A stretch of DNA of 64,000 bases from Asterochloris sp. CNOR1 (Eukaryota > Chlorophyta > Trebouxiophyceae > Trebouxiales > Trebouxiaceae): positions 2,356,001 through 2,420,000 of the forward strand of contig OZ017758.1 in the NCBI GenBank assembly GCA_963969365.1, in the 5' to 3' direction. Both the position numbers and the translations under genes were made by a program. The notes beneath the pieces are model-generated. The model was not told the DNA's origin. It worked only from the letters and a program-made list of their open reading frames with translations, and did no database searches. Positions 1 to 61,745 of this stretch are shown here, piece after piece (within the stretch, counting starts at the first letter, position 1; every line of letters starts with the position of its first letter).

Positions 1-3000
1 ATGTGCCCCAGCTTGCAATTACCCGAGCTGATCCTGCTTTTATTGGGTAGGACAGGTCTGCTGGAGCTGCTGCTGGGCCATGCCGCAGGTACAAAAGACA
101 TGCCTGGGCTCCTGTTACAGCTGTTGCTGGGTCATGCCGCAGGTGCTGGCAGCTGTGCACAGGCCTTTGCTGGAGCTGCTGCTGGGTCATGCTGCAGGTG
201 CTGGCAGACGTGCATCGGCCTCTGATGGAGCTGCTGGTGGAGGAGGCCTTCCATGCCATCCTGGAGGTCTCTGCGGCAGACAGCAGCGACATCAAGGCCC
301 ATGAGCTGAAGGGTGCCATGCCACCTGTCGAGGTGGAAGGCAACTGTGCCATGCTGCTTGTCTCTCCTCCAGAAATCAGTCCAGCATACCAGTTTTTGCA
401 TGCATGACTGCCTGCCCAGACTGGCAGGCTCGGCAGTCTCCAGAGCTGTGACCCCATTGCAGTAGCTGACACCATCTGCAATGCAAATCCCACAGCTGCA
501 TGCCATGCGGTCCAGCACCAAGGTCCCATTGCCTCTCGCACTCCATGGTGATGCTCATACCATCTGGAGTGCTGCTGTCGCAACCCTTGCCTACATCAAT
601 GGTCCATTCTGATGCCGTCCTGCACCTGTTTCCAGTTGTGGAGTCGCTTTGCGCAGGCAGTCTTTGCTGCCCACACGCTGACCAACGCATCCCATCTACC
701 ATGCGAAGTGTCCATGTGACAGGGCCTCATCTTGCACACCTGTTGGCCGGCCGCACAAGCCTGCCCCTGCCGCCTGCAGGCGGGCAGCTGGCCGGAGCTG
801 GCTCGGCGCTACTTTGCACTGGCTGCAACAGCTGCCCTAGTGCGCTCCACTGAAGCCAGCGGGGGCCTGGACACTGCGCTGGGGCACCAGCATGCGGGCT
901 GCACGCCCCTTGCTGCCCTGGGGCCTCTGGCCATCCAGCAGGTGAGCCATGTGCCTGGTGCCCCGAGCGCTTCATGTCGCAGCCTCTGGCACTGAGCGGG
1001 TGGACCATGTGCCGTTCCTCCCTTGGGTGTTCATGCTGCCGCCTCTGGCCACCCAGCAGGTGAGCCATGTGCCTGGTGCCCCGAGCGCTTCACATCGCAG
1101 CCTCTGGCAATGAGCAGGTGGACCATGTGCCGTTTCTCCCTTGGGTGTTCAGGCTGCCGCCTCTGGCCACCCAGCAGGTGAGCCATGTGCCTGGTGCCCT
1201 TGAGGGTACATGCCGCCGCCTCTGGCGATGAGCAAGTGAGCCATGTTCCTGTTCCACCTTGGCTGTCATGCTGCTGCCTCTGGCCAGCCAGCAGGTGAGC
1301 CATGTACCTGTGCAGCATAGCAGGCTTTGTGATTGAGCAGCTGCAGAGGCGGTAAAACAGACATAAAGCAGGATGTGGCAGCCTGACTTTGGGGTTTCAT
1401 GCCGCCAGTGCTGTTATGGTGTTCCCTCTGCCCATTGTGCTGTGGGCCATCCTGTGTTGCTGTGGCTGACGGGTTTTTGTCTCCTGACTGCAATGTTCAT
1501 GCCGAGTGAGCATTGCTGCACCTTGAGCATATGACAGCGCCTCTCTGAGTGCTTCAATATAAACACGACAATCCTCCTTCGAGCGTTTCACCTCGTCGCG
1601 TCCCTGAGTGCTCCAGTCTGAGTGTGTGACGGCACCACTCAAACTGCTTCATCTGGAGTGTGTGACACTACCTCTCAGAGTGCTCCAGCTTCAATGCGTG
1701 ACAGCATCACTGTTGTGCTGCTGCAGGGCCTCCTGGCCGGGAGCCACGACGGGAACCCAGAGGACGCTGGCATCGCAGGTCTGCCACTGGTGAGCGGTGC
1801 AGCTGCTCACGATCCCTTGCAAGAGCTCGTCTGCGCTGCAGTGCAAGTTATCATGCTCTGCACTCCCTCAGGCTTGCAACTGGGTGCAGTCCTGTGCTAC
1901 ATGCACCCTGGCCTGGCTTGAAGGTACGTCCCCACAGTGGCTGGGTTGTGTGCTGGCAGACCAGGGAAGTCATGTGCTCTGTGTTGGCAGAGCAGGTGCA
2001 CAGGGACAAGATGCTGGCCCCAAGCGTGTTTGCAGGGGCCCTGCAAGGCTAAGCCCCTGCCGTGGTTTGTTTACCCAGCAGCTGGGATTGTGCCAGCAGA
2101 GCTTGTGCATAGGGAAAGTGTGGCTCATTTGTTTATGCAGGGAGCCTGCAAAGCCGCCCCTGAGTCCATCCAAGCTAGACAGGATGCTCAGGCCCTGGCA
2201 TCTGCTGCTGCAATGTGCTTGGGCGCCAAGCAGCCCGGAGCGATGGACGTCGATGTTGATGCCCAGCAACTGCAGCGGCGCTGCCGCCTGACGCTGCACA
2301 GCCTGGCCACGCTCAAGGTACAGCCTGGGCTCACCTGTTGTCTGCTGCACTGTTCGTGACAGTATGCAGCCTGAGGAACACGTTTCTTGCCTGCTGTTGT
2401 ACAATCTGGTGACTGCTTGCGCAAACAGTAGTCACTCAGTGAGACTGCTTGCGCTGCTTTGATAGCTGTTTGACTGCTGCTTGCGCAAGCAGCCACATGC
2501 AGTTTCACATGCATGCCTGCCTCACACAATGCTGTGCTTGCCTGTGTGTAACGCGCTGCAGGCCCTTGTTGCATTGTTTTGCTCAAGCCTGTTGGCAGCA
2601 CTTCCTTGAATTTCCACTACCACTGCTTTGTTGCAGGGCAGCAAGTTGGACAGTGGTCCCCGAGCCAACACCCACAGCTTTTACCGTGGGGCGTGGCCGG
2701 CAGCCGCTGCTGCGCGAAGTGGCATGCCCCTCAGCCTGCAGGCAGTGGCTGCCCGGGTGGATGCAGGTGGGTGCACGTTGGTGAGGGCTGTTCTGGCGGT
2801 GCATGATCAGCCTTTGCTTGATGGATGTGCTCAGCAGTGGCATGCCCCTCAGCCTGCACTGCCCCTTTGGGTGCAGGTGGATGCACAGTTGTGAGGGATG
2901 TTTTGGCTGCGTATGATCAGCCGTTGCATTCTGGACATGCTTAGCAGTGGCATGCCCCTCAGCCTGCAGGCAGTCGCTGCCCTGGTGGATGCAGGTTTGT

Positions 3001-6000
3001 GTTTTTTTTGCTTGCTGGCTTAGCTGCGCTGCTCAGTCTGACTGAGGACACATCAGAAGTTGCTTGATGTAGCAGCAACAGCACATCCAGCATCGTCACC
3101 ATTCATGCCTGCTTGCCTTGACTTGCTGTGCTCATCACAGCACCCAAAAGATGAGGAACCTGCATGCGTTTTGCCTTCCAGCTGCTGCTCACAGTATTTG
3201 TTACAATTCACCTTGCTGCCTGCAGGCTACTACGCTGAGCAGGTGCAGGGCTGGGAGGCTTTTGCTGACGACATCCGCCACGTCTGCCACCTGTGGCAGG
3301 CAGCTGCCAAGCGCCAGAACTCCCCCTTCGCCGAGCAGCTGCGGGCGAAGGGTGTGCCGGAGATGGGTGACATCATCCTAGCCTCTCTGGAGTCCCTGAT
3401 GGCCCAGTCAGAGGCCAGCCTCAACTCAGGTGGGACTCTGATGGTGCTGCCTTTCCAGATCTCCTCTCATGATGCACCTCATCTCAGCCGGCTGCCCTGA
3501 TGTTAGGTTGGCTGTCCAGCCCTTGTGCATCCTTCAGGGCACAGGACTGGGACTGCATGATGGCCCAGTTAGAGGTAGTCCTCAGTGACACCTTGCCGCT
3601 CCCTGATACCTCAACAAGTAGCCAACCTCACCTCCTGTGGGTTTCAAAGCTTGGGCCTGCTGTCTGTTTGGTCCCCTGCAGCCCTGGCCTCAGCCTAAAG
3701 CCAAATGGGTTGCCTGCACCAAGGACAGCCAGGCAAGCAGCTGGTCTCCCGTCTGAAGCTGGCCTGCCACAGCTGCATGCTGCGTGTGCAGCGGCAGGGC
3801 TGCCTTTCTGTGGCTGCCATTGAATTTGACTGGATGTGTGTCAGCAGTGATTTGCTTTGCTGGGCGTTGCATGGCACTGGGCAGCACATGATGAAGGTAC
3901 AGCACCTTGGCAGGCATCTGCTCAGCCATTGTCTTCGCTTGACAAGTTTTTAGCACGCGGCAACGGATGGTAAGGGAACAGCGTGTGCGCTGCAGTCCCA
4001 GGAGAGACCAGCGCACCAGACAGTCGGGCAGGCAGCGCCGGACGTGGTGCAGAGGAAACTCCACCAAAGGCACGAAAGAAGGCAGAACAGTTGGCCCTGG
4101 ACCTGGGCAGGTGGGCGTTGCCTTGCTTGCAGCTGTTGCAGACGGTACAGCCTGCCACTCTGGACGTCACCTGCTTTTACTCCAAAAGCTGTTTACATGT
4201 TGGCTTTCCTTGCTTTCAGTATGGACTTGTTTTACCTGCAGCTTCATCAAACCCTCCTCGTTGCATGCACAGCAAACACCTAAATTCTTGATTCAGGACT
4301 GGTCTCATGTGTCGTTGCGTCTACAGGGTCAAGGGTTGGGGGGGGGGGTGGGGGGGGGGGGGTTTAGCCTGCAAGGGTGCTAGCCTGCAAGGGTGTCAAC
4401 AACTGCTCCGCGCACTTCAAGTGAACATGTGATTTGTCTCAGCAGTTTGTAGGTGCGTTCTGATCTGCATCCAGCAGCAGCCTGGCTGGAGCCACACAAG
4501 ATGCCCAAGCTGGCCACTCAGACTGCAGAGCTCTTGCCTGCAGGCCCTTCTGCCCCGTCAATGGCTGCTGCGTGTGCTGGCAAGAGGAGGACAGCAAGCA
4601 GATCATCCTGTGCGAGACCTGCGATGCAGAGTACCACATCTACTGCCTGCAGCCACCCTTGCAGGACATTCCAGACGGTGGGTGGGGCAGCCCTGCCACG
4701 GCAGTGCTTTAATGCTCAGAGTGACGCTGGTCAGCAGGTCTCTCCTGGTCAAAGTGTTTTGGTGAGCGGCGGGCAGGCCTTTTGTAAGTCTACGAACAGT
4801 GGCGCATGGCACTATGCCTGTGATTGCTCCTGCAGGGGGTTGCTGATAAGGAGTGTGCTGGCTCTGCTGGAGGAGTTGCTGAAGTGCCTGTGACATGTCT
4901 GCAGTCTGCACCCGCCCCTGTATTACTGCTCAGGAGATGTTGGGGAGCTTCTGGTGCATCAATGGCATTGTTGCTGCTCATGCAGAAGGTTGCCTATTGG
5001 GTGTGCTGCCACTGCCGGAGGAGTGCTGGGAGTGCCTGCCGTATATTCGCGGCCTGTGTCTGCCCCTGCGGGGCATCTGGGACAGTGGGTGTCTCAGCAC
5101 TGATTCAATCTGACAGTCTCTGAGGCAGCTGGCGGTAGCTGGCAGCCTCTCGTGACATTCTGGATGGCGGCGTGCCAGTGCTGCTGTGTGTCATGCTCAG
5201 AGGCGTGCAGGTGGATTGCTGTGGCGCTCCATGATTGCTACACGGTGGCCTCCATCTGCAATGAGCAGTGCTTGATGTGCCAATGTTTTGCCTACCCCTG
5301 ATGCTGCAGGGGAGTTCTACTGTCCGAGGTGCAAAGCAGAGCAGGACGGCAACTCTGCTGGCAATGGCGGCCTGCAGCCCCAGGAAAAGTCCACCCGCCT
5401 TATGCAGCTCGATAAGGCATACCAACGTCTGGCGACTGCTCTTGGTGAGGCTCGCCTTGTGGTGTCTGCAGAGGGCTGCTGTCGCTCCACACTGACTCTG
5501 CACCGCTGTTTTAACACCTGGGGAGCTATAGTGCAAGCCGGTTGGAGCCTGATGATTGGGTTGCGAATATCTTGGCTTGCAGTATATCGTCTTCTCCTTC
5601 AAACCCTACACGCTCCTTGACAATGTGGCGCTGTCTGCGCTCTGCTTCATTTTGCTTGCTGTTGCCTGATCTCTGACCAGCTCCAACCGTCCCCTTGTGG
5701 GCACTATAAGTACCAAGACATGCTCTCTGCAGAAGAATCATTTGCCAGCAAACTCCTACAGGAACCTTTGGCTGCATCCTGCAGGCCAGCGCAAAGACTG
5801 GCAAGGCAGGCCTGAATCCCTGCCAATGTGATCCAACCTACGAAGTGCAATTGCCCCGTTGCACGCCAGCATGAGCGCCAGGACCTGCACCCTGCAGTGC
5901 AGATGGAGGTGGCTGTGCTGCTGTTCCTTGTTTCCTGACTGAATGTGGACTGCCCCCTGCAGGCCAGCACGAGTATGAAGACCTGCTCCCTGAGGAGCGC

Positions 6001-9000
6001 GTGGAGGTCGCGGTGCTGCTGTGCAGCCTGGCCAATGGCACGGCCTACCTTAGGAACCACTTTGATGAGCTTGAGGAAGACAGAAAGACGCACCGCAAGG
6101 AGCTGATGGCGCTAAAGGCCAAAATGAAAAAGTGCGCTTCTCTCTTACGATTCATAGCGCTGGGTGCTGCGTGACGCCTTTCTGGCATTGCTTAGGTGCT
6201 TGTGAAGGAGTGGGGCACCCTGTACGACAGTTTGCTGCCTGCAGGCCAGGTGGAGAAGTGTGTAGTTTCTGATTGTCCTTGCTTTGTCTTATGTGAAGAA
6301 GGGGGGGTTCATCAGCAAGGGTACGCCGCAGAATGCCATCTACTTTGCTGCACTCTGGGGCTGCTCAGAATGCGCGGAACTGGCAGCCACAGGCATTTGG
6401 CACCGACAGCAGAGCAGTGACCTGGTTATTAGTGCCTGTAGGGCATCTGCATCAAGCTGGTTAAATGCCGCTCTTGGAGGATAGGAAAGTCCAAGTCCCT
6501 GTGTTGCCGCACACAGGTGCCCCCTTCAGTGTCAGGGCCAGTCATGGCCAGCAGAGCACTGTCTCAGTAGCCCACCAGCCAATCTGACGTGCCTTCCTGC
6601 TGTTCAGAGATGCACAGGAGCGGGCCGCTGCGGCTAAGGCTGCTGCAGACATCTCCAGCCCGAAGGCTGCAGAGGCTGGGGCCACACCTGCTGGGAAGAA
6701 GGGCGTCAAGAAAGGGGACAAGGGCAGCAAGGCACCTGAGGATGCAGCTGCCAAGGCCAATTGGCAGAAGTGGCAGGAGAGCAATGTCAGGTGGGCTGGT
6801 GTGCTCTGCAGCAATTCGCAGAGGCAGGAGGGCAGGCACCCAACTCCCTCCACAGTTTAGCACAACCTCAGCTTGCAGTGCACCTTGATGGCAAGCACAG
6901 TGTGGGCTGTTTGCAGCTCAGGCTGATGAAGTGCCTGCAAGCGCCATACGCAGATTGACATCAGACTGACATGGCTTCGTTACAAGTGCTGAAGCCTGAG
7001 CCCAGCACAGCATGTCATGAACACACGTACACCTGGGTCTTCTTCACCTGTCATAGCGTGTACCAGTCTGCAATGAGCCCTGCTGGATCCATCTTTGTTA
7101 ACTGCACCTGGATGCCACTCTGAAGAGCATGCAGCCAGTGGGACAGTTAGCTGCAGCCAGCTCTTTGGATGTGTGGCGCCTTGCTATCAGTGCAATTGCA
7201 GTTTCTGAGTCGCGCCTAACGCAACGCATGTAGGCATCAAGAGCGATGTGTTAGACAGCAGAGCAGAGATTTGCCCTCTCCCAGAAGTGCTGCGTCACAC
7301 TTGAGGGCATTCCAGACTTGCCTGTGGGGTGGCAGGTGACATGAGCTCCCTGGTGACTGCCACCACGCGGCACATTCATCTTGTGACTGCCCTGTTGCAG
7401 CGCTCGCAAGCAGCTGGAGCAGCGTGAGTTGACATGTTTTACCACGTCCCACGCATGCTCAGCTGTGCCATTCCCACGCTGTCGCTTACCTGCTGCAGGA
7501 CGCGCAAGCAGCTGGAGGAGTCAGCAGCTGGGGACATTGAGGCTGACCAGGCCAGGGTCAGGGAGCTAGCAGCAAAATTGCGGTGCGTTACAGGGTCCCT
7601 TCTTGTGGCTGCTACAGCCACAGGCTTATTTGCAGCAGGCTTGAGTACGCATCCATCTCTGCTTGAATTGTCTTCTCAGGCTTTCTCACAGAAACTGCCT
7701 AGAGCAGCCTTGTCGCCCCTCCTTGTGTGTGTAGCTGCTGTTGTGAAGAGCAGGCAAGAGCAGGCAAGAGCAGGCGGCCACAACTCTACATGTCTGCTTG
7801 TCATTGACCATCTGAGGCAGGAGGAAAGCTGCCTGACGCAGCCCTGTATTCAGTCGTGCTGCTGTCGAACCTTCGCTGAGGTAGAATGGGACGCACACCT
7901 TTAGTGCATATCCAGCATGTAAACGAGGCAGCAGGACACCATGACACCAGAGCAAGCCTGGTGCACTGCACGGGTGTGACAGGCAGTGAGGCTGCTAAAC
8001 GCATTGCATGCCTGAGCACTGCTGTGCAGCTGTCAGGGACGCCACAGTACTCATCGTGCAGGCACGCAGGACTTCACACAAGAAGCTGATGCGTGGGGTG
8101 TGCCTGTGCAGGGAGGGTCACCTGCGCAAGGACCTGCTAGGGTTTGACCGCCACTGGAACCGTTACTGGCTGTTAGGGGCAAGCTTCACCACAGGCAAGC
8201 ACTGTGCACTGCTGTGGGTTGTGGTGGTGCCTTAAGGTTGCGCTCCTGCTGTGCCTGTACTGCTGTTGGCTGCACGGGCATACTATGTGGGGCAGCCAGG
8301 TCTCACTCTTGGTGCAGACAAGGCCCACGTGAGCAATGCCGCCGGGGTGCATTTGCAAGGCCCGCAAGCCTCTGCAGCGTGTTGCCTTGACCTGGCCAGG
8401 TGAGTTCACTCAAGGCAGACATGGGCTCACTGTGGCTACGGTCAGGCATGAGGCTTCTCTCAGGGTGTTTTCTGCCTTGCCAGGTGGTGAGCAGGACGCC
8501 CGCCCAGGCTGGGTGTTTCAGGAAAAGGCAGCGCCCCCTCCAGCTGAGAAGTTGGCCCCAGGAGAGCGCCTGCAGCCCAGCAAGCAGCAGCTGGCTGAGC
8601 ATGCACGCCGGGAAGCCGAGGCGGGGTTCACTGCTGCGGGTGATGAAGATGCCCTGGGTAGGTCTGGCTGATGCACGCTCTTGCAGCTGGCCGATACCTG
8701 CAGCCCTCATCGCAGCAGGTGGTCCAGACTTCCCAGATGCAGCTGACCACAGTTGCATCTGTCGATGCGGACTTAGGTGCATGACTGCTGATGCTTGGGT
8801 GTTGCAGCTAAGTCCGCATGCTCTTGCAGCTGGCCGGTACCTGCCGCCCACATCGCAGCAGGTGGTCCAGCCTTCCCAGAGGCAGCTGACCACAGTTGCA
8901 TCCGTCAATGCGGAGTTAGGTGCATGACTGCTGATGCATGGGTGTTGCAGCTAGATCCTGACAAGCCCCTGCAGCCCACCCTACAGCAGGTGGCAGAGCT

Positions 9001-19400: not shown

Positions 19401-20932
19401 GCACCGCAGCTAGCAGGCCCACCATGATGTCAGCAGCCCGTGGTGTCTGGGCCAATGGGGGTGCGACTCACTTCTTCAGGTGGGTACCGACTGGAAGCAT
19501 GTGTCTGGGCCCATGGGCTAGTTGCACACTTCCCCAGGTGGGTACCATTTAGACAGCTCTGCCTGAGCCAATTGGGCATGCAACCCACTTCTCAGGGGAG
19601 GGGGGACCATTGTGCTACTGCTGGTGGGCTGTGGAAATCGTGCTACTTCTGGTGGTCATGTGAAATTCTTATGGTTTGTGAAGCTGCTGTGCTGTGCTTT
19701 GTGGCTTGGGCATATCAGCTCGCTGCGTATGAAGTCTGATAGAGAGCCACCAGGGGGCACAAGCACTCCCTCAGGTGAGTGGACTCTGCTACGAGCAGGT
19801 GGATGCCAGCGCTTTGAAGAGAAATTAGGCAGCCCTGTTGTGGCTGAAGATGTAGGGGTTTCTAGGGTAGCATTTTGACGTGTGAGCTTTGTGGGCTGGG
19901 GAACCTTTGAATGTATTTTCACTGGGGGCACATGGTGGGCTGCCAAGGGTGGCATCTGTGCTGTTGTGCAGTGCATTCTCCTGCTGGTGCCTGCATCATG
20001 GTGAGTTCCAATGCGGTCCCCAAGGCCCTGCCGCCGCCCTCCTGGAAGGCTCATGCAGTCTACTACTGGTGTGACGCCCTTGGAACGCCCCTTCTCCATT
20101 GCCCCACTTGGGTCGACAGCTTGCTTTGTATTACGTGACTGCTCATGCTTGTGTGACTCTCCTGCAAGGGCTCTCTGCAGAACAGGGAAAGAGCAGCACA
20201 CATGCTCTGTCCCTGCATGCACATGTGCATGAAGCATCAGCATGGTCAAGGGACTGGTCACGATAGTGCGCTGCTGAGGCTCCTCTGCAGGCCATGTATG
20301 GCCAGTCTCAGACCAAATGTTCCTGCCTATAACCAATCAGCTGCCTGCCTGCAGGGGCGTGGGCCCGCGTGCTCTGTCCAATGGCATCAACAGTGCAGTG
20401 TTCTTCGTATTCTTCGAAGCGCTGAGGGCCGCATTTGCCAGGCACAAGGAGCAGGTGGGGCACGGCTGCAACACTGTTGGCCCACAGCATAACAGGCGAC
20501 TGCCTGTGCCTCACTGCATGGGGCCGGCACCAGGATCATGTGGCACGCTGCCCAAGTCTGCCGGTCACAGAGAGATTCAACTGCAGCCTGTGCCCAATGG
20601 GAGAACGCAGTGCAGACCCCTTGCAGTGCTGCACCTGCTTTCATTCCAGCTTGGTCCTGTACCCCTTCTCCTGGCATGTGTATGCCGCAATGCATTGCAG
20701 ATGCCGAGCAGGTTGCCAACCCAGCAGCTCGCACTCCGTCACTCTGTGTGATGAAGCCCGTTTTTGAAGGTGCACTGTGCTCATTTTCTGGTCAACCTCA
20801 CCTGTTTCGTCTCTGCAGGAGCTGCGGCGCGCTGTGCGCCCTGGGAGGCCCCTGCTGGGCAATGCCAAGAGTGTTGCTGTCAAGGGAGGCCCTTTCAGGC
20901 GCAAGCCCCAGCTGCAGTCTGCTGCCGCCTGA
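16473..20932 (+). CDS. Mitochondrial carrier family protein, S-adenosylmethionine-carrier-like
   Basis: Nine exons: 16473-16778, 17119-17274, 17704-17809, 18104-18267, 18793-18839, 18965-19034, 19316-19479, 20355-20454 and 20819-20932 (TGA); about 408 residues, longer than the usual 300 because of a Pro/Ala-rich N-terminal extension of about 80 residues. The three carrier repeats are visible: HPIDTLKVRMQ (a full Px[DE]xx[KR] signature), VPLAVCIRSVQ (degenerate: the acidic and basic positions are Ala and Ile) and TPLDVIKTNMM (full). GYLPTLLEDVPDMAVKFAAYE and the ARAASQGTIHPIDTLK start resemble plant SAM carriers, so transport of S-adenosylmethionine or a similar solute across the inner mitochondrial or plastid membrane is likely but not proven. 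The start at 16473 has a good context (CACACCATGACG) after a CA-rich leader; an in-frame ATG at 16242 is possible. The tail is basic. Confidence 0.88.
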
Positions 20933-21183: not shown

Positions 21184-21260
21184 GTCTCAAGTCAGAACAT
21201 CAGCGCCAGAGAATAAAATCAAAAGTCTTCATAAAGGTCAGGGGGGAGACAAGTGCCAGT

Positions 21261-31524: not shown

Positions 31525-39074
<7,550 letters not shown>

Positions 39075-42621: not shown

Positions 42622-45600
42622 ATGGCATCCTTGGGCGTGGTGCAACGCTGCCGGGCACAGCCTGCAGCCGCGGTGCGTTGCAGAGCGTCTGGCAGCGCAG
42701 CAAGTCAGATGACAGGTCCCACGGGCAGCAGTGGTGCCCAGTCAGAGCAGCTGCCGCCCGCCCAGGGCCTGCCACCTTGCTGCAATCCCCTGCGCAAGCA
42801 GCACGTGGGGTGGCACAGCTGCACAAGGCTCCGAGCCCCCACTGGTGCGCGGCACGTCGCCTGGAGGCTGCTGTGCTCGGCCAGCAGCTCCAGCAGCGAT
42901 CCTGGCCTGAGCCCCAAGGAGCTCCAGAAGAGAGTTAACGCGGACAGGATTGCCATGGTGTTGTCCAGCCTGGCCGAGGAGACAGAGGCTGCCCGCAAGC
43001 AGCAGGTGGGCAGCCACTGCCAGTGACAATGCCTGTAGGCTGCTGTCGTGCAGCTGCTAGAAGCATTTTGAGCTGACCAGTGCCCCTGGAAAGCCCCTTT
43101 TCTAGGGTTAGTGCTGGCCCACCATAACAGACTTGCTGCTTTGCTCTTGCTCTGGACCCTCTTGATACATGATACCATTCCATACCCACTCTCATGAGGC
43201 TGCTGATCAGCACAGAAAGAGCCCATAGTGGTTCCCTGATGGCTGTCCAAGACTCATGGCGTTGCGTCCAGCATTATAAGATTTCTACAGGGTTCCCTTA
43301 AATTGCGGCAGCCACCCATGTGACGCTGCTGCAGGACCTCCAGGAGGAGTCAGGCAGCCTGGCTGACATGCTGAAGGCTGGCCTCAAGAAGGCTCCAGAG
43401 GATGACCAGCTGGCTTTTGGGGGCCCCCGCTACCAGGCCACAGATCCCAACAGTCAGGTACGTGAGGCTTGCATCAGGCTCTCATCAGGCAGCACCCTTT
43501 ATCAGGCCACAGATCCCAGCTATTAGGAGAGGGGGCTTGACTGGCAGTCCAGGCTGCATATCCCAGTGATCAGGTGAAAGGGGCTTATCAGGCAGCCCCC
43601 ACTACCAGGCCGCATATTATATAGTCAAGTAGGTGAGGTTATCGGCAGGCAGCCCCCACTACCAGGCTGTGTATAGCAACAGTCACTGTGTCTCTCAACA
43701 GGCAGCACTCTGCCCCTGCAGCTTCCGGCTTGCATCTGTGGTCCCCGACCGTCAAGCCACACAGCCCCGGGGATAGCCTTTGATGCCTAGTTCATGCAAG
43801 TCTGCATGCACAAGGGTGGTGCACTCTGCGCCATTGGTGTGATGGCTGTGCCGCTGTACCCCAGACCTAGCATCCCTGCCAGCACACCTATGTCCCCCCT
43901 GGGCCCCATTCATACCGGGGAACAGAGACTAAGGGGTTCAGGACTGCAAACAGCGCTTGTCCCTGGGCTCTGAGTCCTGCTCACCATCTGCGATGAGAGC
44001 CTAGTTCCTATTCAAGCGCCTTTCCCAGCGGATCCAGGCTTTGGCAAAGGTGGTTTCCACCCGGTAGAGCTTAGGCGCTAATCCTCTCAATATCTATATA
44101 CGCTTTGTAGGGCATGCACAGCTACAACACCTAAGCTGTACAGTGGTCGCTTCCAGTCATCAATGCTATAATAGTTGCATTGAGCGCCCTGGTGTAGACA
44201 GGCCTCTGGCACTGCTGGGTGGCTGCCTGCCCCTTGTTCTGGGGGGTTCATGTCATGTGAGAATCATGACACAGTGCGGCTCCATCAAGTCAGATATAAA
44301 CCCTGACTCCCATTGTACCGCTGCAGGGATGGGCCGCAGTGGACTCTGCTGAAGAAGAGAGCAGCGAGTCTGACCCTGAGCCCGACGAGGCTGTCACAGG
44401 CTACCTTGGGGGAGCACAGGAAGGCGGGGCCGGTGCTGACTTCTTCAGAGAAGAGGGCTGGTCAGAGCTTGAAGAGGTGGGCAGATACGATGATACTCTA
44501 CTGCTTTGTGAGCTAGGTGCAGCCAGTGCCTGGCAGCAGGTAAGCAGCAGGCAGCCCTGCAGAGGCCCCTGGCACTGCAAGCCTTGGCCAAGTGTTAGCA
44601 GGTAGCTATCTGCCCACACGATTTCCTCTGGCTTGGGACTGTGTGCCCTCACACAGTCTTGCTGGCAGTCAGAAATATGTTGCAGGTCGACGGGCTGATC
44701 ATGGAGGGCTGATTTACATTCTTACTTCTTGGCTAGAGGCAGCCCTACCAGGGCATCAGCAGTGCAACATGGCCCTGCAGTAACCACAAGACTGCTTACA
44801 TTAATCGTAGCGCTGCTGCAGGTGGACAGGCTGATCACGGGGGGCCGCTCTGACCTGACGCTGACCGACCTTCAAGCCTCCTTCAAGTTCCCACTGGACT
44901 CCTTTCAGAGCAATGCCGTGCAAGCCCTCCTTGATGGGGAGTCTGTGGTCTGCTGTGCCCCTACCGGGGCAGGCAAGACTGCCATTGCAGAGGCTGCAGC
45001 TGTGGCTGTCCTTGCCAGGTGGGCCTTCCTGAAACAGGGACACATCTTGCCAGAGAGGCTGCAGCTGTTCGCACTGCTTCATGCAGTGACATATGCTACA
45101 GCATGGCAGCAGAGCAACAGTCTGCTCCTACAGTGGTCCCATGTCAGCAGATAAGGTGCTGGAGCTCCATCTACCCCTGCCCTGAACATCAGTCACGGAA
45201 GCAGCTGTGCCACCCGTGATGCCCTTGTTGGCCTCCAGGGGCCAGCGGGTCATCTACACCACCCCTCTGAAGGCGCTCAGCAATCAGAAGCTGGTGGAGA
45301 TGCGCAAGCGCTTTGGGGAGAACAGGGTTGGCCTGGCCACCGGCGACGTGTCCCTCAACACTCAGGTGGGGATCTGCAGCCTGCAGCCTGCAGCCTGGTG
45401 TGATGTGACCCTCGCTGCACTGCAGCAAGACATCGCTGCTGACAGTGCTGCTTTTAAGAGCATGCGATTCCACTTGTTGTGCCTTCTGGTGGCTCCTGCT
45501 GCAGCAGACCTGCTTGCACGTCCCAGCCTGGCATACCTGAGCATTGCAGGCTGGCAGATCACTTTGAAAGTAACAGTAATGTTCATGGATTCATTCTGTT

Positions 45601-48600
45601 GTTGGTACAATGTCTCCATTGACAGAGCAATGTCACCTTGCTGAGGACAGTTGTAAACAGGCCCGAGCATGTGGCCCCCACTGCGCTCCTCCTGCCCAGC
45701 TCTGTCGTCTAGATTTTGTGCAGGCAGTAAGCGCAGCCAAAACCATTGAAATGTTGCCCTGCACAGCCAATTCCATTGAAAACTTGCCCTGCACCTGCCC
45801 AGTCATGCTGCTCAGCCATGAGCAGATCTCCTAACCACCTCTGTACAGGCAGACAGTGCCAACCTGACCAGTGACGGTCTTGCTTATGTGAGGCTTGTGC
45901 TGAGCCCTCTGAACCACTCACTATGCAGGCTGACATCGTCATCATGACCACAGAAATCCTACGCAACGTGATGTACAAAGTTGGGGAGCTGGACGGCGTG
46001 GCCCTGGACCAGAGTGCCGAGGACAGGCTCGCAGATGTGGCCCTCATTGTGCTGGATGAGGTGGGCTGGCAGCTGGCATCTGTCATGTCTGGTACCAGCT
46101 CACGAGATGCAGACTGGCTGACAGACGTGGCCCTCACCATGCTGTCATTGGTGGATGCTCACTAGGTGTGGACAGGCTGGTGCACGTGGACCTCAATGTG
46201 CTGGACCAGGTGAAGGGGCAGCAGGCATTCTCAGTGCTTGCAGCTTGCTGCAGACACTGGCAGATGGCATGCGTGCTGTGCTGGATCCCTGAGGCGTGAG
46301 CACATGATTCCGATGTTGGTGTCGCGTGCTCTCCAGTGGCTCCCTGTCGTGCCAGAGCACATCCTTCAATCAAATTATGGCCCTCGTTATGCTGCACAGC
46401 CCTGGCAGGGGGGGCTCATTAAGTTGCTGTGCTGCCAAAACAGCAGCAGACCCTGACCTCGTGCCTGCTTGCAGGGTGACCATCTGGGCAGCTCAGAGTG
46501 GGCTGCTGCATTGCTCTGACCTTGCAAGGGCATTGATGCAAAGCCAATGAACTTCAGTGTGCATCTCTGGCCTGCAGGTGCACTATCTGGGCAGTCCTGG
46601 CAGGGGCACTGTGTGGGAGGAGGTGATTATCCATTGCCCCACCACCATCCAGATGCTGGCCATGTCAGCCACAGTGGCCAACCCTGAGGATCTGGGGGCA
46701 TGGATCAGAAAGGTGGGGCCCACTCACCCCACTCAGGCTGCAGGGCATGCCAAGGAGTTTCTGTTGAGTGGAGTGTCAGGCTGCTGTGGCAGCAGGAGCC
46801 TGCTGTCTGCTGGTCCGCCCGATCATGTCGCCTGCTACAAATGCAAGTAGGCTCTGAGAGCCTGCCACACCATGCAGGCCGCAGGACACCCGAGAGGAGT
46901 GTAGGGATGCCTGCCATGGGCTGCCTGTTGGGTCTGCTCGGCCTTGACGCTTGTTTCTGTGCAGCAGGTGCACCTGCAATGTGACAGGCAACAGCCTGGT
47001 GAGTGCTCTGCACCTGGGCCTGCATCCTCATGTGCCTAACTGCATGCTGCCGTGAAACCTGCAGGCTGATTTCTCATTCCCAGTCTGGCTGCCTGCAGAC
47101 ACATGGGCCATGCAATACCATCACCACACGCTTCCGCCCCGTCCCCCTGACCTGGCACTGGTGCCACGCCATCGAGGGACAGACAGAGCTGGTGCCCCTG
47201 CTCAACAGGCGCGCTTCAGGGCTCAGCCACCCCCTGCGTCCGTCAGCTATGAGGGAGCCGGGCTGGGATGCACTGAATACCTTCAGGTGGGGCTTGGGCT
47301 TCACACCAGGTGCAGGGCACAGCGCTTCGGCAGAGAGTGCCTCTGTCCCTCAGCTCTTCTTGCTGCAGTCCATGTTGTTGTTGTTACCCATGCATCCAAG
47401 CTTTGCGTGCTTTGCTTGAAGCACTCAAGGCCTTTCCTTCTCACATCTGGGTGCCCAATTCTATTTGTTGCTTTACGCAACCCTTTGCATTTTGCACAGC
47501 ATGTGGCGCCTGCTTTCATCTTCCCTGTGCGTCACTGCTGCAGGACCCGGCGCTTCAAAAAGGACGAGCAGGAGGTTCCCCTGAGGCTGCAGATTCCTGC
47601 CTGGAAGCGTGTTCCCCCACTGCACGACACCATCGCAGCTCTCAGAGCACGTGACTACCTGCCTGCCATCTGGTTCGTGTTCAGTCGCCGGGGATGCGAC
47701 GAGGCAGCAGTGCGCTGCTTCAAAGGTGGCATGACCCTCACCACCGCTGAGCAGGCGGCTGCCATTGAGCAGGAGCTGGAGGCACTGAGGTGGGCGGCAG
47801 CACTCTACTTGGATCTGTTGTGCTGTTGTTCTGGGTCTTTGCGCTGTTGCAATAGTCCTTTCTGGTGCATATGGGCTACATGTGATCACTGTGAAGTGCG
47901 CCAGCAGCATTGCCTGTTCGTCTATACGGTCTGCTGTGTTGCCCGTCTTGTGCAATCTCTCTGGCATGGTGTGGCTTTCAGTTGCGGGATGCTTTGACCA
48001 TGTGACAACAGCAGAGCTGAAAAGATAGGAGTGCAACAAGCCAGAGAGACGTATGAGTATACCACTTCCGACACGTCAATGCACCAAACAACAGGGTGTC
48101 AGTGGACAGCATCAGGACAGGAATGCTGGTCGCATTGCACAGTTTCTCGAACTGGCCAGCCTTCATGTGCAGTCACCTCAGGCCTGCAGCCTTCTTGGCC
48201 CATGAGCAGTGACTGTGTGGTCCACCTTCTCGGTGTGTTCATGTCTTGGCGTACCCCAGAAGCCTGCATCCAGGACTGTGAACAGATCCCATGCAAGTTA
48301 TCAGGGACACCAGGCAGGGAATCAAACCCTTTTTGGTTTTGCTTGCAGCCTGTCTTTGCCGCAAAGCACTAAGCCCCCTCTCTTGATGTCTGCAGGCGAG
48401 AGCAGCCAGAGGCAGTGCGGGCTGACCTCTCAGAACCGCTGGTGGCCGGCATTGCATCACATCACGCTGGCTGCCTGCCAGCCTGGAAGGCCATTGTAGA
48501 GCGCTGCTTCCAAAGAGGTGAGCTGTGGCCACAGCCACATTCTGGCAGATCAGTTTCAAACATGAGGGGCTGCGGAACACACAGGTGCCCTACCCCAGGA

Positions 48601-51600
48601 AGAAGGGCCGAGGTGTGCTCTTGTGGCCACAGGCCGCAGGCTGGCAAGTCACCTCCAGCAACAGAGGGCTTTGGGGCACAACACATAGTTAAAACCATCC
48701 CAGGCACAAAGACCACCATATGGGCGGCCATAGCGAAGGGTTGCTTTCAACGAGGTTAGCTTTTGTGGCCACAATAACAACCTGACAACTTATCTCAAGA
48801 CCACAAGGGCTTTGGGACTGCAAATCACACAAGTGTCGACCACCTCAGGCACGAGACCGCTTTATAATAGGCTCAGTGGAATGCTGCTTCCAACAAGGTG
48901 AGTGTGTGTGGCCACAGCCACACTTGTGGCACATCACTTCAAATGCTAGGGCGCTCGGCAGCAATTGGGGGAAGCTCATGTTGAAGCAGGTCATCACACC
49001 AGAGACCAGCACATCGGGTACAACAATTTATCAGGGACAGGCAAAATGCCACCGCCCACCTAAGTGCCTCCAGCACCTTGATGGTGGCAGCTGCCTGCTC
49101 AGTGGTGGTGATGGCAAAGCCACATCTACCAGAAGGGCCTTGGCGCTGCAGGACACCTAGGCCAAAACCACCCCAGGCATAAGGACTGTTGTGTTCCCAA
49201 CAGTTGGGTGCTCCAGCAGTCAGGGTTTCCCCTGACTTAAGTCTCATCTGCAGGCGTAATGCTCTCATGTGATCAAACGTTTGGCGGCATGAGCTTTTGT
49301 TTCACACGTTTGTTGCTTTCGCAATAGCGACATCAGCAAGCATCAAGCTCACCACATTCCTTGACATGCTTGCAGAATGCAGCAATCCCTGCCTCGCCTG
49401 CTGCAGGGCTGATCAAGGTGGTATTTGCCACAGAGACGCTGGCGGCAGGCATCAACATGCCAGCCAGGACGACCCTGCTCTCGTCCCTGGCCCGGCGGCG
49501 AGATGGGCAGCTGGCTGCGCTCATGCACAATGAGCTGCTGCAAATGGCTGGGCGTGCTGGCAGGCGGGGATTCGATACAGCAGGTGGGTTTGTACTTGTG
49601 CAGCAGGTCCTGGTCGGTACTGCTGTGACCAGACTGCAAGCCACTGGGTGGCTTCATGCACTGCGAGCCGCTCCGGATGCCTGGGCAGGTGTTGAGGCAG
49701 GAGTTGGATGCAGCAGGTGGGTGCTGCACGTGCTATCGTCGACCTCAAAAGAGGCTGCAGAGACAACAATGACCCATCTGGCACATTGCTGGCTCATGAG
49801 GGGGCTCTGCTTACATCCTCCTTAGGAATGCTGCCATCTCCTGAGACCATGAGACACGCTGGCAGCCTTTGAGCGGGCCGGCTCATGAGCGGGCTATCTC
49901 GCTGTGCTTTGCAGACCCAACAGACATGCTGGCTCATGAGGGGGCTGGCTAAGTGTGTCTGGCAGCAGCCTACACACCACATCGCTCCTGCAGCTGGCGC
50001 TGGGCAGAGCAAGGCCTAATTTTTGCCCCAAATGTTATCTTGTGCCCTTGTCCTGTTTGCAGCAAACAAGTTGCAGTCGTGCATACTCAACCTTCCAAAG
50101 AAAAGTCGTGCAGGCTACTGCACGCTTGGGCGTGGCTGCAACCTCAGGACCCTTCTCACTCTGACAGCTTGAAACCTGGCCTCACTGCAGACAGCTGTGT
50201 GCTCATACACTGCAGATACTTGCAAGCTGACCCTCGACATACCCCACCCATGCGGCCGCATCGATTGTGTGCCCATTCACGCAGTGTCCAGTTGCTGGAG
50301 GAGACTGTGCGCTCAGAGTCAATATAAGGAGCCCTGGCTGCCTGGATCTCATGTGCCACACCGCTCACAAAGTTCAACGCCTGCTTCTGCTGCAGGAAAC
50401 TGTGTCCTGATTCAGAGTCGGTATGAGGAGCCTGAGGCGGCCTGGGAGATCATCAAAAAGGGTCCTGAGCGGCTGGAGTCCCAGTTTGCTGCAGGGTACA
50501 GCATGGTACTCAACCTGCTGTACACGCGCAGCCTGCAGGAGGCCAGGGAGTTCATCGACCGCAGCTTCAGCACCTACATGGGTGAGTGAGCCTGTAACGG
50601 TTTGTCTGCTCTACTGTCGGACGATCTAGAGATGAAGGGAGCCTTTTGGCGGCTCAGCTGCAGCTCCTGCATGGGTGCAGGCCAGGTCAGTCCATCACTG
50701 TTGCTGGCAATGTGCTGTAAGTGGGGATTTATGTGCGTTACTCTGTTCTCATGCTCCCACTCCTGACACTTGACCGTGTAAAACAGCTGTCCTAAAACAG
50801 CGTGCGGTCAGGCTGCTGCAGGCAATGGACTGACCTGCCTTTCACGCGGTATTCCCCTGTCAGCATGAGAGGCCTGAAGCTAGCACCATGGAGAGCAAAG
50901 GTCTGCAGAAGCTGGTTCTAAGACCCATGTCTCAATGCAGGTGGCGAGGGCCGAGAGGAGCGCATCGAAGAGGCCGTCGCCCTGGAGGGGCGTGCCGCCA
51001 GGCTGCTGCAGCGCGCTGGCACTGCAGCTCACGATGAGAAGGTGGAGGCCACTCTGTGGGCTGCCTACACCAAGCTGAAGGAGCGCCTGGAGGCGGAGAA
51101 GCGCAGCGCGGCCATCCTCCAGGAGCAGTGCCTGGAGATGCGTGCGCAGCAGGGGCAGGCGCTGCTGGTGAGCACCCTGCATACAATCTAGGAGCTGTTC
51201 CGCTGTGGGTCTGGTCAATCATCAGAGTGCAGGGTGGGGGTTCCTGTGTGCTGAGGCAGTGGCTGCAGGCCTGGTGCAGTGCTGTAGGAGTCATGATCAC
51301 GCAGGTGCAGGACTAATTTTCCACTTGGAAGTGGTGTGGAAGGTGTGCAGCACTAGTAGCTTGGAACGCAGAGCCTGAAGGTGCATCAGCACAAGCATCG
51401 GCTCTTGATGTAGTTGGGCAGATGCAGGGCTCCAAACACTCGTATCACACAGGGGCAGAACTCATTCCAAAATGTGGGAGTGGTGTGGAGGGTGTCAGCT
51501 CTAGCAGCTTGCAGACGCAGAGCCTGAAGATGCATTGTCGCAAGGGGGCAGAAAACATTGGCCCCTGGTGTGGTTGGGCAGATGCTCTTGGCACTGGCCA

Positions 51601-54600
51601 GGTGTCTATGCCGCATTTAGACCTTGATGAGTTGCAAGGTGCCAGCACGCTGTGCAGTGCTCAGGTTGGGCCTGTGAGCTGTGCAAGCATAATATTGATA
51701 CTTTGAGCCGCTGGCTGCAGGAGACCTTGGCTTTCCCCCAGGTTATTGGCATCCAGGTACAGACGGACTCGTCAGCAGGGCTGGAGGACATGCTGCCAGC
51801 CCTCATCATCAAGCCAGTGCAGATACCTGATGATGCGGGCTCCACAGATGCCGATGGCAGCTTGGAGCAGACCTTCTACCTGTGCCTGCGCTCTGACAAC
51901 AGGCAAGGCTGTTGCTGAACGACCAGCCTCATACCCCTCTGGTGCTGTGTGCATCGTTGCATAACTTACCCAGTGAGTCGCCTCTTGTGGGCCTGCTGCG
52001 CTACTGCAAAGATCAGCCACCGACGCGCTAATCTGATGCTTCTGCAGGTTGCTGCTGGTGCAGCCCCGCCACATCGCGGGCGTCCTGCCCGTCACCCTGG
52101 AGACTGGCAGCATGGCAGAGGCAGCAGACACTGTGGAGGCTGCGGCAGGGGCGGTGGCGTGGGACACATGGATGCCCCTGACCAGCGGGGCACAGTTTGC
52201 TGCAGGTGGGGCTGCAGCTTGGCTTGTGTGTCAGCCTGTTACACTCATAAGTCGAGCTTGCAGGCATGTCTTGTGCTTCTGGTCTGTGGTGCTGCACCTG
52301 CAGTGTGCTTTCAAGGGTTTCCTGTGGGGGGGCTGTGAACCCGAAAAGGGCGCTCTGCCACATGCCTCCGGTCCAGTTGCCAACACCTTTGAACTCCCAG
52401 CACAGTCTGTGCACATCCCTTCTGTGCAGTCAGCACTGCTTCTAGTGTGACTCTGCTTGCCTTTCTCCACACCTTCTTTGCATGTGTACAATACACTTGC
52501 ACTGGCGACCCCACCTGGGTTTGATGCAGGCTCTGCTCCACTTCTTCTTCTGGCTGCACCTGTCAGGGCCATCATGTGCTCTTGCCTGCAGGCACCCCTG
52601 ACACCCTGAGAGTGGCTCGCGGACTGCCTGCAGCTGCCGACCTGGACCCCTTTGGGGTGCCTGACGAGATGCAGGATGCCTTCGACATGCAGCAGGACAT
52701 TGTCAAAGACGTGAGCAGGCACAGTGCTCATGGCTGCTGGTTGTTGCAGTGAGCACTGCTGGCAGATCACCGGCAAGTGCAGCGTGCACCACACGGGGCA
52801 GCATTCGCATAGAATGTGGTCAGAACGCCTGCTTCAACAGGATTGCCCTGCATTTGCTAAGCAGCCGCCAGGCCATGACACTGCAGACGGGTATGACGCT
52901 TGAATTTGCAGGCTGTTTGTCCACGCAGAGCATCAGAGTCTTCAGCTGGGCGCTTACTTGATTGCTGTGCCTGCTGACTCTTGGAGTGACTGAGTGTCGA
53001 CCAACACAGCTTGGCGCTGCAGGTCAAGCGTCAGGTCAAGAGGATGAAGCAACAGGGCAACCTTAAACAGGCAGAGCAGCAGGCCTGGGAGTTGCAGGAA
53101 GAGGTGAGGCTGTGCAGAACCTGTGGCTGAGGTTGTCAGCGTGAAATAAGCACCCCCAAGCAGTTCGTGCAGCAAGCGTGGGAGCTGCTGGAACAGGTGA
53201 TGCTGTGCAGGTGCTGCTTCTGTCCATGGCTCCAGCTGTATGCCATGTGCAGAGTTGGCTTCCTGCCACACTACTGGCTATGACATGTTGCCTCTTTTAT
53301 TTAGGCAACAAGGCTGCTGAATGGCCTTGGGAGCTGCTTTATTGTGTGCTTCAGGGGATTGCTTGACCACATCAGAAGCAACCCTGTGTGCAAGCCTGGC
53401 TGCGCCTCACAAGCTTCCAGCAAGTGCCTGCTGGGGGTTGCCTGAGCTGACCCCCCCTTTGTGCAGGCCAAGCATCTGAATCGCAAGGCAGCCAGGCTGC
53501 GCCGCCAGGCCGCTGCAGGCATCAGCAGCACCTGGCGCAAGTTTGAGAGCCTGATCAAGGTGCTGGTCGCCTCCGGAGCCCTCAGGGAAGGCACTCTTGA
53601 AGCCACCGCGCTGGGCCAGGTGTGTGTCTACCTGGTGCATCTGCTCTGGCTCTTGCTCTGATTTGCTGCACCAGCCTGGCCGAGCTTGACTGACACCACA
53701 GCATTGACATGGGGGGCCCGCCAGCGCTGATCGCAACATGGCACTGCTATGATCGACGACCACAGAGACAGCATCCACACAGGCCTGTCCCCAGGCTGCA
53801 AGCATAGAAGTCCTGCCGCTCACAGACCACAGACAAGCTCCTTGCACAGCATGGGTCTGAACGCAGAGGAAAACGGACCAATAACGCTTGGAAGCGTGGG
53901 GTTAGCACAGTCCAGACCCAATAGCAAAATGGCTGCTGGCCCTGCTGCGGCACTTGCACACTGTGAACTCCTGCCCTTCTGCATCGATTGCAACGCCTCT
54001 CTACAGCACCTGCCACGCCCCTCAGCAGTACCTCTTGGTGCCTGGAGCAGCTGATGCAGCACAGCGTGTGCGGCGTGCTCATCTTTGCAAGCTCTGACAT
54101 GGCCTTGTCCTGCACCACTTTTGCAACATACATATTCTGTAATGTGGCTGAGCCAGCACTAGCCCTCTTGTGGCCCAAACGGCAGTGTCTTCAGCAGAGT
54201 TTCACGTGTGGGGGACTCTGATAATGCTGAAAGCAGCCCACAGCATACCACAGCTCCCGTGCTTCCTGTGCAGGTGGCCCGCCAGATAAATGGTGCCAAC
54301 GAGCTGTGGCTGGCGGTGGCGCTGACGCATGCGTCCGTTCAAAGTCTGGCGCCCGCACGGCTGGCTGGTCTGATGGCAGCCCTGGTGGCCCAGGAGGCCG
54401 TCAGCAAGCCCACAGTGATGGCAGCGTATGCCCCCTCGGAGGGGGTCATTCAGGCGGTGCAAGCGCTGGAGCCGGAGCGGCAGCGCCTGTTTGAGCAACA
54501 GCAGGCTCAAGGGGTGGAGGCTGATTTGACAGTGGACCTCAGACTAGCAGGTGAGGCAGGGCCACTTGATCTGCTGTAAGGCCATATGCAATGACTTGGT

Positions 54601-55312: not shown

Positions 55313-55372
55313 TATGACCTCTGACAATCTGCTGATGACGATTGCTAACTCTTTGAAGTCGGCCGCTGAACA

Positions 55373-55382
55373 TATTTATAAG
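55373..55382 (+). promoter_or_regulatory. TATA-like element before the DUF218 gene
   Basis: TATTTATAAG lies 30 bp upstream of the ATG at 55412, in the 99-bp gap after the ISE2 stop codon. It would allow separate transcription of the downstream gene with a very short leader. Confidence 0.4.
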
Positions 55383-55411
55383 GGCAGACCAAGCATTCGG
55401 TTGACCACACT

Positions 55412-57554: not shown

Positions 57555-57735
57555 GGCAGCCAGGCATGCTGGGGCTAACGGGGCATCAGAGTTGCGTCAT
57601 CAAATGGTAGGGAGGCCTTCAGGTCCCGCTTCTTCAGCTGAAATGCACAAACTTTAGTGCAGTCTCTGCAGGCAAATTTGTTGGGGAAGAGATCGAAGCA
57701 GAAAAAGCAAGACGCAACATTTCTGCACAACTTCA

Positions 57736-57868
57736 TTACATTGTGAGGTGTACTGATTTGATCATGTGATGCATTGTTTCACTGAAAGCAGTAGCATGTT
57801 AGACTGAAGCACGTGCAACCACTTTTTCTCACTACTTCTAGTGCAACTGGATTTGGCCATCTCTTACA
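57736..57868 (-). terminator. TGTAA signals downstream of the FrnE-like gene
   Basis: On the minus strand TGTAA occurs at 57864-57868 and 57736-57740, about 120 and 247 nt after the stop codon at 57987. They lie in the 432-bp tail-to-tail gap with the DUF218 gene; no plus-strand TGTAA was seen there. Confidence 0.5.
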
Positions 57869-57986
57869 TCTGCTAAACTTTAGCCTCTCTGACATCAGCA
57901 TAATTGTCTGTCACTGTTTCAGTATGCTGTTGCCAAGATCAGCTCGCCCTCTGACTCCGAACTCTTACTTCAGACAGCTGGCTGGC

Positions 57987-60590: not shown

Positions 60591-61745
60591 TCGATGATCA
60601 TCACTCATCCTGGGATGGAGAGGTCTTTTCATTGGAGGAATCCCCTTGGGCTGTGCGCAGCCTCTTGCTGGTACCAGCTCCAATGTCACTGTCAGCGCGA
60701 CGGTGCTTGCGACTGTCAGCGTGACGGCGCTTGCGCAAATACGCCTCTACAGCAGCTCATCATCATATCAATGTTGTGGTGATGTTAAATCAGGTGTTGC
60801 ATATGTTCCAGCACAGGTAGGACACACCGGCAGTGACTGCAAAGGCTCGCTCTAATGCCTGCATCACCAATGAGTGCTGCAGTTGGCAAAATCCCACTAC
60901 CTCCAGAAGCTGCCTGTAGCCCTGCGCAGCACCTGTAGCTCTCTCCTGTGCATCGAGATCTGAGGTGTTTCACAAGCCCTGGTGACAACACAGCTGGGTT
61001 CCCTGGTCACAGAGCACCTTATGCTTGGGCCCCTCAATGTCACGATGGGGTGCGCCCAGACCTGCAGACTGTAAGTGCTGGTGGTGACCACCTTGTGGCG
61101 CACCTCTTGCAGCCCATCGTGTAGCCCATTCGGCCCCCAACATTCCTGGAATGCCACATCCGCCGATGAATCTACAAAGACGCTCAGGTTCGGTAGTCTG
61201 ACGAGGATCGGATGAAGAGGTATCTCCCGATGAAGCCTCCTCTTGGTCAGCGCTGCAGTGCCAGGCCTCTTGCCAGTACCGACTCCAATGCCACTGTCAG
61301 AGCAACAAGGGCGCTTGCCTGCACAGCAGCGCATCAGCTGATCATGGGGTGGTAGCGCCAAGGCAGGTGTTGCATGCCATCCAAACACAGGTATGACACA
61401 ACGACGGTGCCTGCAGACCTCCCACTTAGGCTCGCTCTCCTGGCAGCACCGCCAAAGCAGCTCTGGCAAAACAACACTGTCTCTGAAAGTTGCCTGTAGC
61501 CCAGCGAATAGCACCCTCAAATTCGGTCAAACAAGCCCTGCGCAGCACTGGTAGCCCTCGCCTGCACATTGAGATCTTGAGATGATCCACATGGAAACCC
61601 CTGGAGTCCCTGGTGACAGAACATCTCCGCTCCCTGGTGCCAGAGCACCTGATGCTTGGCACCCTCGATCTCACCTCGCGCAGCGCCCTGACCTGCAGAC
61701 TGTAGTTGCTGATGCTGACTGTCTTGCTGCGCACCTCACGCAGCA
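60590..61745. repeat. Roughly 600-bp tandem duplication
   Basis: Unit 1 (about 60595-61125) and unit 2 (about 61195-61745) share, in the same order: ATG/GGAGAGGT near the start, CCTCTTGC(T/C)(G/A)GTACC, CACTGTCAG, GGTGTTGCAT, ACAGGTA(G/T)GACACA, GGCTCGCTCT, GTTGCATGT-like blocks, AGCCCTGCGCAGCAC, TCCCTGGT, and CTGCAGACTGTA. The copies are clearly diverged, with indels. Confidence 0.75.

Follow-up and report, generated by a model that had tools for sequence, protein, structure and literature searches.

Tandem duplicates of exon ends and their splice sites in introns of the alga Asterochloris sp. CNOR1

Genes and duplicated exon ends in the window

The DNA considered here is a stretch of 64,000 nt from Asterochloris sp. 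CNOR1 (assembly GCA_963969365.1, contig OZ017758.1, positions 2,356,001 to 2,420,000), referred to below as the window; all coordinates are window positions. The features of interest are copies of exon ends, together with the adjoining splice site, situated inside the neighbouring introns. Three genes of the window encode zeta-carotene desaturase, lysyl-tRNA synthetase and a DExH (ISE2-like) helicase, with top protein matches from Trebouxia in each case (83%, 72–73% and 49–50% identity, respectively). Exons of these genes were placed by spliced alignment of the named algal homologs; the 19, 24 and 44 alignment rows yielded 11, 10 and 18 exons once zero-length, tiny and terminal pieces had been dropped by hand. 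The 36 introns defined by homology are 96 to 1130 nt in length, and their splice motifs are consistent, being mostly CAG/GTGAG and TGCAG/G (the slash marks the junction). The boundaries of introns 2 and 3 of the lysyl-tRNA synthetase gene are uncertain.

An ab initio gene finder was trained on the homology-defined exons and run over a 304 kb sample, consisting of the window and 240 kb from elsewhere in the genome (24 ten-kilobase stretches from 18 large contigs). The genome comprises 56.38 Mb in 21 contigs, 18 of which are approximately 2 Mb or longer. At the setting used, the gene finder returned 62 genes with 456 introns. It recovered 31 of the 36 homology-defined introns exactly (33 donors and 35 acceptors), an optimistic figure in that the same genes had served for training.

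Repeats in the window were located by an ungapped diagonal scan (score at least 16, offsets 15–1500), and those in the 304 kb sample by a BLAST self-comparison (score at least 20). The latter does not detect offsets below 50, of which the diagonal scan of the window gave 10 pairs. Tandem Repeats Finder (TRF) provided a further set of 29 non-redundant arrays from the 304 kb, with periods of at least 24 and at least 75% matches. Duplicated exon ends and related arrays in the window are listed below; percentages are identities between copy and original, unless stated otherwise.

Genes modelled by homology:
24443..24647 (-), zeta-carotene desaturase intron 4: acceptor 24504/24505 and first 62 nt of the next exon (24443-24544), with a tandem copy in the intron at 24547-24647; 88%, period 103
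33977..34309 (-), lysyl-tRNA synthetase intron 6: acceptor and 82 nt of exon (33977-34069), with a decayed copy in the intron 240 nt upstream (34217-34309); 76%
33677..33889 (-), lysyl-tRNA synthetase intron 7: exon end and donor 33828-33889, copy 33677-33737; 78%
32870..33121 (-), lysyl-tRNA synthetase intron 8: exon end and donor 33090-33121, copy 32870-32901; 84%; not accounted for by a single simple tandem unit, the offset being too long for the intron
32373..32676 (-), lysyl-tRNA synthetase intron 9: exon end and donor 32645-32676, copy 32373-32404; 84%
44678..44845 (+), helicase intron 1: acceptor and exon start 44814-44845, copy 44678-44709; 84%
46021..46228 (+), helicase intron 4: exon end and donor 46021-46079, junction after 46060, copy 46170-46228; 76%
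48484..48939 (+), helicase intron 8: exon end and donor, junction after 48517, two decayed copies at 48721-48818 (64%) and 48876-48939 (80%)
49511..49722 (+), helicase intron 9: 73 nt of exon and donor 49511-49589, copy 49644-49722; 70%
53057..53210 (+), helicase intron 15: exon end and donor 53057-53117, junction after 53103, copy 53150-53210; 77%

Genes modelled ab initio:
918..1311 (+), PHD-finger gene model: exon end and donor, junction after 941; array of period 118, sub-period 59
2718..3001 (+), PHD-finger gene model: exon end and donor, junction after 2766; period 110-118
8673..8953 (+), PHD-finger gene model: 143-bp tandem duplication, 92% matches, one copy holding the whole predicted exon 8830-8919
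19443..19575 (+), mitochondrial carrier gene: exon end and donor 19443-19517, junction after 19479, copy 19501-19575, offset 58; 69%
28028..28499 (+), DnaJ-family gene: exon end and donor, junction after 28060; array of period 95, 4.7 copies at 28028-28476

Several other observations concern these same genes. The decayed copy in lysyl-tRNA synthetase intron 6 (34217-34309) was miscalled as an extra exon by the ab initio finder, a warning for annotation. The 143-bp duplication at 8673-8953, in a PHD-finger gene model, is a possible case of recent exon duplication. The end of helicase exon 7 and its donor (47726-47811) have an inverted copy at 49038-49123 (77%, score 46), approximately 1.3 kb downstream in the intron after the next exon; inverted copies nearby are uncommon elsewhere (7 of 190 pairs in all). 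At 60650-61745 there is a cluster of direct repeats with offsets of 580–631 (e.g. 60977-61113), outside the final gene models.

Frequency and type of the duplications

The diagonal scan gave 143 local direct repeat pairs in the window, compared with 7 in one dinucleotide-resampled window. Within the 36 homology-defined introns, 14 pairs with a score of at least 20 span a splice junction and have their partner inside the same intron; these are distributed over 12 introns. The same introns contain 7 intron-only pairs and 1 other at that score. Shuffled controls, 20 per intron, gave mean maximum scores of 8–14 and a top score of 19. Exclusion of the two lysyl-tRNA synthetase introns with uncertain boundaries leaves 11 junction pairs in 10 of 34 introns.

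Similar results were obtained for the 304 kb, where 183 direct and 7 inverted pairs were found at a score of at least 20, as against 3 and 0 in shuffled sequence. Classification in terms of the gene models kept 177 direct pairs, the six with offsets above 700 being omitted. It is apparent that the largest class, 80 pairs, spans a splice junction (42 donors and 38 acceptors). The remainder comprises 39 intron-only pairs, 22 exon-to-intron pairs without a junction, 13 exon–exon pairs, 10 intergenic pairs and 13 others. Junction pairs are present in 64 of the 456 introns, and in 95 introns a visible pair of some kind takes up 20 nt or more. The exon portion of a junction pair has a median length of 34.5 nt and the intron portion 18.5 nt. 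At least one direct pair was observed in 17 of the 18 sampled contigs. Copies of exon ends carrying the splice junction are thus genuine and widespread in introns of this genome, beyond the window.

These data bear on a first-pass annotation of the window, made from its letters, in which such copies had been described. Their existence is borne out, and several genes are involved; the count of at least seven genes was slightly too high at the score threshold used, at which six of the window's ten ab initio models contain the 21 junction pairs (5, 1, 1, 3, 4 and 7). The spacing of 50–145 bp given there includes the median offset of junction pairs in the 304 kb, 138 bp, and the 5–95% range is wider, at 66–380. 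Assembly error, which the annotation had named as something that would refute its idea, does not account for the copies, since they are diverged, with identities of 61–93% for the junction pairs.

The window is richer in pairs than the rest of the sample (53 in 64 kb, compared with 124 classified pairs in 240 kb). Five of the 29 TRF arrays have a period above 58 bp, all of them in the window, which is thus richer in recent long-unit duplications than the rest of the sample. Six TRF arrays lie wholly within predicted exons (L006, L007 and L012; stretches J05, J06 and J11), with periods of 25, 24, 27, 36, 24 and 54; five of the six periods are multiples of three, as expected for repetitive protein segments.

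With regard to the type of event, the geometry of the repeats is informative. The pairs are overwhelmingly direct and of short range, with offsets of 50–199 in 127 of the 183, and TRF reported many arrays with periods of 24–42. In 17 arrays with two copies, the length differs from two full periods by -9 to +10, so the copies adjoin head-to-tail and share little microhomology. Direct orientation, short range and head-to-tail geometry therefore identify the events as tandem duplications with little microhomology. A single tandem unit inside the intron accounts for 74 of the 80 junction pairs. In orientation, head-to-tail junction and size (mostly 50–200 bp), the repeats have the characteristics of tandem-duplication insertions of the patch-repair type. 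Intergenic DNA contains pairs at a similar density (10 in 48.9 kb, or 0.20 per kb) to that of intron-only pairs (39 in 167 kb, or 0.23 per kb).

Several other origins were considered. Retroposition of exons was rejected, given that the 80 junction pairs run past the junction into intron bases; together with the direct, head-to-tail arrangement, this upholds the annotation's view that DNA was duplicated across junctions. Duplication to give mutually exclusive exons was likewise rejected, in that units containing two junctions account for 5, 1 and 0 of 177 pairs under the three gene-model settings, and the copies are nearly flat in divergence by codon position and frequently frameshifted (see below). 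Dispersed elements, such as introners or transposons with exon-like ends acquired by chance, are a most improbable source: the copied sequence is that of the adjacent exon itself, and none of four segments tested had a match beyond its own locus in the 56.4 Mb genome (one also matched its own adjacent tandem copy), in a search that gives a lower bound.

The repeats might also mark the birth of introns rather than their growth, as in the Rogers model, in which an exonic segment containing AGGT is duplicated in tandem. The mutational process would be the same, and it has been reported in plants, animals and fungi (PMC3443670). That model, however, requires a match between the donor side and the acceptor side of an intron, and pairs in which both copies contain a junction amount to only 8, 2 and 0 of 177 under the three settings, where random placement gives 10.7, 8.5 and 8.0; one of the two such pairs at the middle setting is a mis-modelled exon. 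The Rogers model is accordingly regarded as highly improbable for the bulk of these repeats.

Decay of the copies and their placement relative to junctions

The copies were compared with their originals position by position. On the donor side (48 donors), identity is 0.65–0.79 over the last exon bases and 0.56–0.79 at +1 to +6, and falls to 0.44–0.46 at +7 to +10. On the acceptor side (34 acceptors), it is 0.68–0.76 for exon bases, 0.79–0.85 for the TGCAG bases and 0.44–0.59 beyond the motif. Such a fall in identity past the splice motif, towards the intron, agrees with a functional half that is held frozen in each pair.

A copy retained for coding is expected to differ from its original far less at codon positions 1 and 2 than at position 3. 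Mismatch frequencies at positions 1, 2 and 3 were 0.214, 0.222 and 0.288, respectively, for the 94 copies with enough exon columns (out of 102 junction and exon-to-intron pairs), and 23 of the 94 are frameshifted. Almost no constraint by codon position is apparent, and the birth of new exons, which the first-pass annotation had proposed, finds no support in these figures. Nor does the suggestion of redundant splice sites fare well. A GT is present at 29 of 48 copied donors, which is within the range for adjacent exon dinucleotides (0.48–0.67); for acceptors the figure is somewhat higher, with AG at 25 of 34, above the 0.53–0.59 of adjacent exon dinucleotides.

The copies could be functional, with selection keeping them as decoys, as nascent exons or as splice sites that are alternative or redundant, and the plausible donors and acceptors just enumerated, together with the closer match of the TGCAG bases than of neighbouring exon bases, count in favour of this. 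Donor retention, however, resembles that of adjacent exon dinucleotides, the codon-position profile is almost flat, and the acceptor difference may stem from the invariance of the original acceptor. Function of the copies as a class is considered very unlikely. In bulk, their sequences suggest near-neutral debris, among which individual copies may be used.

The first-pass annotation had set as its test a comparison of junctions with random placement. When the geometries of the pairs were placed at random, 31 ± 5 junction pairs were obtained, with a maximum of 50 in 100 trials, as against 80 observed. The result is similar across three gene-model settings and two score cut-offs, with counts of 80, 46, 80, 47, 81 and 47 and null means of 33.8, 20.4, 31.0, 18.0, 28.7 and 16.7, respectively. 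Taken at face value, such an excess would suggest that junctions are preferred targets of duplication, through damage linked to transcription or splicing (e.g. R-loops, or nicks near boundaries) or through the shared CAG and TGCAG motifs. The shortness of the exon portions relative to the offsets is also in keeping with targeting, but intron-only pairs are short too (median 43 nt), so that shortness is not specific to exons. The scarcity of microhomology in the two-copy arrays likewise argues against it.

The excess was examined further by simulation, in which random tandem duplications were introduced into the gene models, exon-disrupting events were removed, copies decayed neutrally and the exon half of each pair was frozen. 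The half consisting of exon and splice motif being frozen, junction pairs remain visible for longer. The visible junction fraction in the simulation is 0.45–0.49 as long as divergence stays within 0.3 substitutions per site, and rises to 0.83 at 0.3–0.4 and to 1.0 thereafter. When event ages were fitted on junction pairs only, the predicted number of visible intron-only pairs was 50–51 per 80 junction pairs, and 39 were observed (p = 0.22). The pre-set test is therefore passed only in its raw form: the junction excess is largely matched by random placement if events that break exons are discarded and the exon half is kept constant.

Recent events provide a second view of this question. Among the TRF arrays, 7 are at junctions and 11 are intron-only (p = 0.64 against the simulated 0.45). 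Among recent pairs with a score of at least 20, the ratio of junction to intron-only pairs is 14:11, 8:7 and 2:2 at identities of at least 80, 85 and 90%, respectively; at a score of at least 25, the corresponding ratios are 8:4, 6:3 and 1:1. Random placement of the visible alignments predicts junction fractions of 0.25–0.36 across these recent classes. The observed ratios are not above the simulated young-event fraction of 0.45 (p = 0.15–0.61; p = 0.32 for 14:11 and 0.61 for 8:7). Strong targeting of junctions is not needed to explain the data, and the recent events allow a mild preference. Survivorship and frozen exon halves predict most of the excess, and preferential targeting is considered unlikely.

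A number of results weigh against random placement filtered by selection, and they should be set out together. The raw junction excess is strong. Recent pairs mildly exceed the placement null of 0.29–0.36, with p = 0.015 for 14:11, 0.037 for 8:4, 0.048 for 8:7 and 0.067 for 6:3, all on small numbers; the first of these counts in favour of targeting. Uniform ages give a junction fraction of 0.50, compared with 0.67 observed (80 of 119), and the fit of the model requires an age distribution skewed towards old events, fitted with free parameters. Exon-only pairs are overpredicted (32–54, compared with 22 seen), as are alignment lengths where unit length is equated with offset. Unit lengths in the simulation are a guess; multiplication by 0.6 with addition of a spacer came closer on the exon portion and still gave too many exon-only pairs. 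A single tandem unit fails for 6 of the 80 junction pairs, and outside the three homology-modelled genes the gene models are ab initio only. Finally, visible pairs cover 3.5% of intergenic DNA and 8.0% of intron bases, a difference that arises because introns also hold the junction copies.

Proposed origin and significance

The explanation that we consider probable is that random short tandem duplication is filtered by selection, with exon ends acting as long-lived tracers. Short stretches of DNA (about 30–300 bp, mostly 50–200) would be duplicated head-to-tail, for the most part irrespective of gene structure. Duplication within an exon would usually break the gene and be lost, while a duplication in an intron, or across a single junction, would keep the outermost splice site usable, leaving the mRNA unchanged and the intron longer; splicing presumably uses this outer site. 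The inner copy would then decay as neutral intron sequence. Where the unit includes an exon end, selection would freeze the original half, and the pair would diverge on one side only and be recognisable for longer than a pure intron pair. The over-representation of exon ends and splice sites among visible intron repeats would follow from this one-sided divergence, which prolongs their recognisability. Patch repair, or end-joining at staggered or adjacent breaks, may give rise to the duplications.

Comparable events have been described elsewhere. Insertions of 50–200 bp in rice are mostly tandem duplications and have been ascribed to the repair of adjacent nicks, not to slippage (PMC7971508); their share falls beyond 125 bp and is 5% by 200 bp. 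The same paper refers to earlier work by Vaughn and Bennetzen (2014) and to a study from 2016 on single-strand breaks in plants. The rice events are young, having been called between varieties, whereas those of the alga are mostly old and are recognised within one genome by means of the frozen exon half. A candidate molecular route is the fill-in of 3′ overhangs by Pol alpha-primase, which makes small tandem duplications at induced breaks in human and mouse cells (PMC8355091).

Introns can also be gained through tandem genomic duplication of exonic AGGT, a route with published support (PMC3443670, PMC2891723; also PMC4974935). The likeness lies in the tolerance of a tandem genic duplication whose extra copy is hidden by splicing; the difference is that a new intron is born in an exon in that case, while in the alga the duplication affects a junction that is already present and lengthens its intron. 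In genes of human segmental duplications, tandem units across exon–intron boundaries similarly alter the extent of introns (PMC2812944). The 27 intron modifications reported there belong to recent primate paralogs, often with alternative transcripts, in contrast to the decayed copies of the alga. The genome of Asterochloris glomerata has been described as 56 Mb in size, with 9 introns per gene, introns larger than fungal ones, about 5% repetitive DNA and a mitochondrial genome of 110.9 kb (PMC6652019); the portion of that description available does not mention duplicated exon ends. Among the matches listed in the open literature, judged by title and the start of the abstract and with subscription papers outside the scope, none ascribed the lengthening of introns across a genome to copies that span junctions.

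The first-pass annotation had proposed a general mechanism of intron lengthening. Some lengthening by this route is supported, as is the occurrence of the duplications beyond the window, and strong targeting of junctions is not needed for it. How far it extends is a more tentative matter. The age-fitted model extrapolates to 512–772 junction and 640–1597 intron-only events in the 456 introns, figures for which the old ages are poorly constrained; visible pairs account for only 8.0% of intron bases. On that basis it is possible, albeit doubtful, that most intron DNA is debris left by local tandem duplications, at about one junction-spanning event, or more, for each intron.

Two traps follow from the nature of these repeats. 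Frozen halves make junctions resemble duplication hot spots more than is warranted, and the copies can feed false exons to gene predictors. Conversely, duplications that straddle a junction reveal the lengthening of introns in a manner that ordinary intron insertions, which fade on both sides, do not: one side is frozen, and the event can be dated for longer. If intron DNA does consist mostly of duplication debris, the rate of repair-driven duplication, and not transposons, would set intron length in this alga, and the frozen exon halves would constitute a one-sided clock with which the growth of its introns could be dated.

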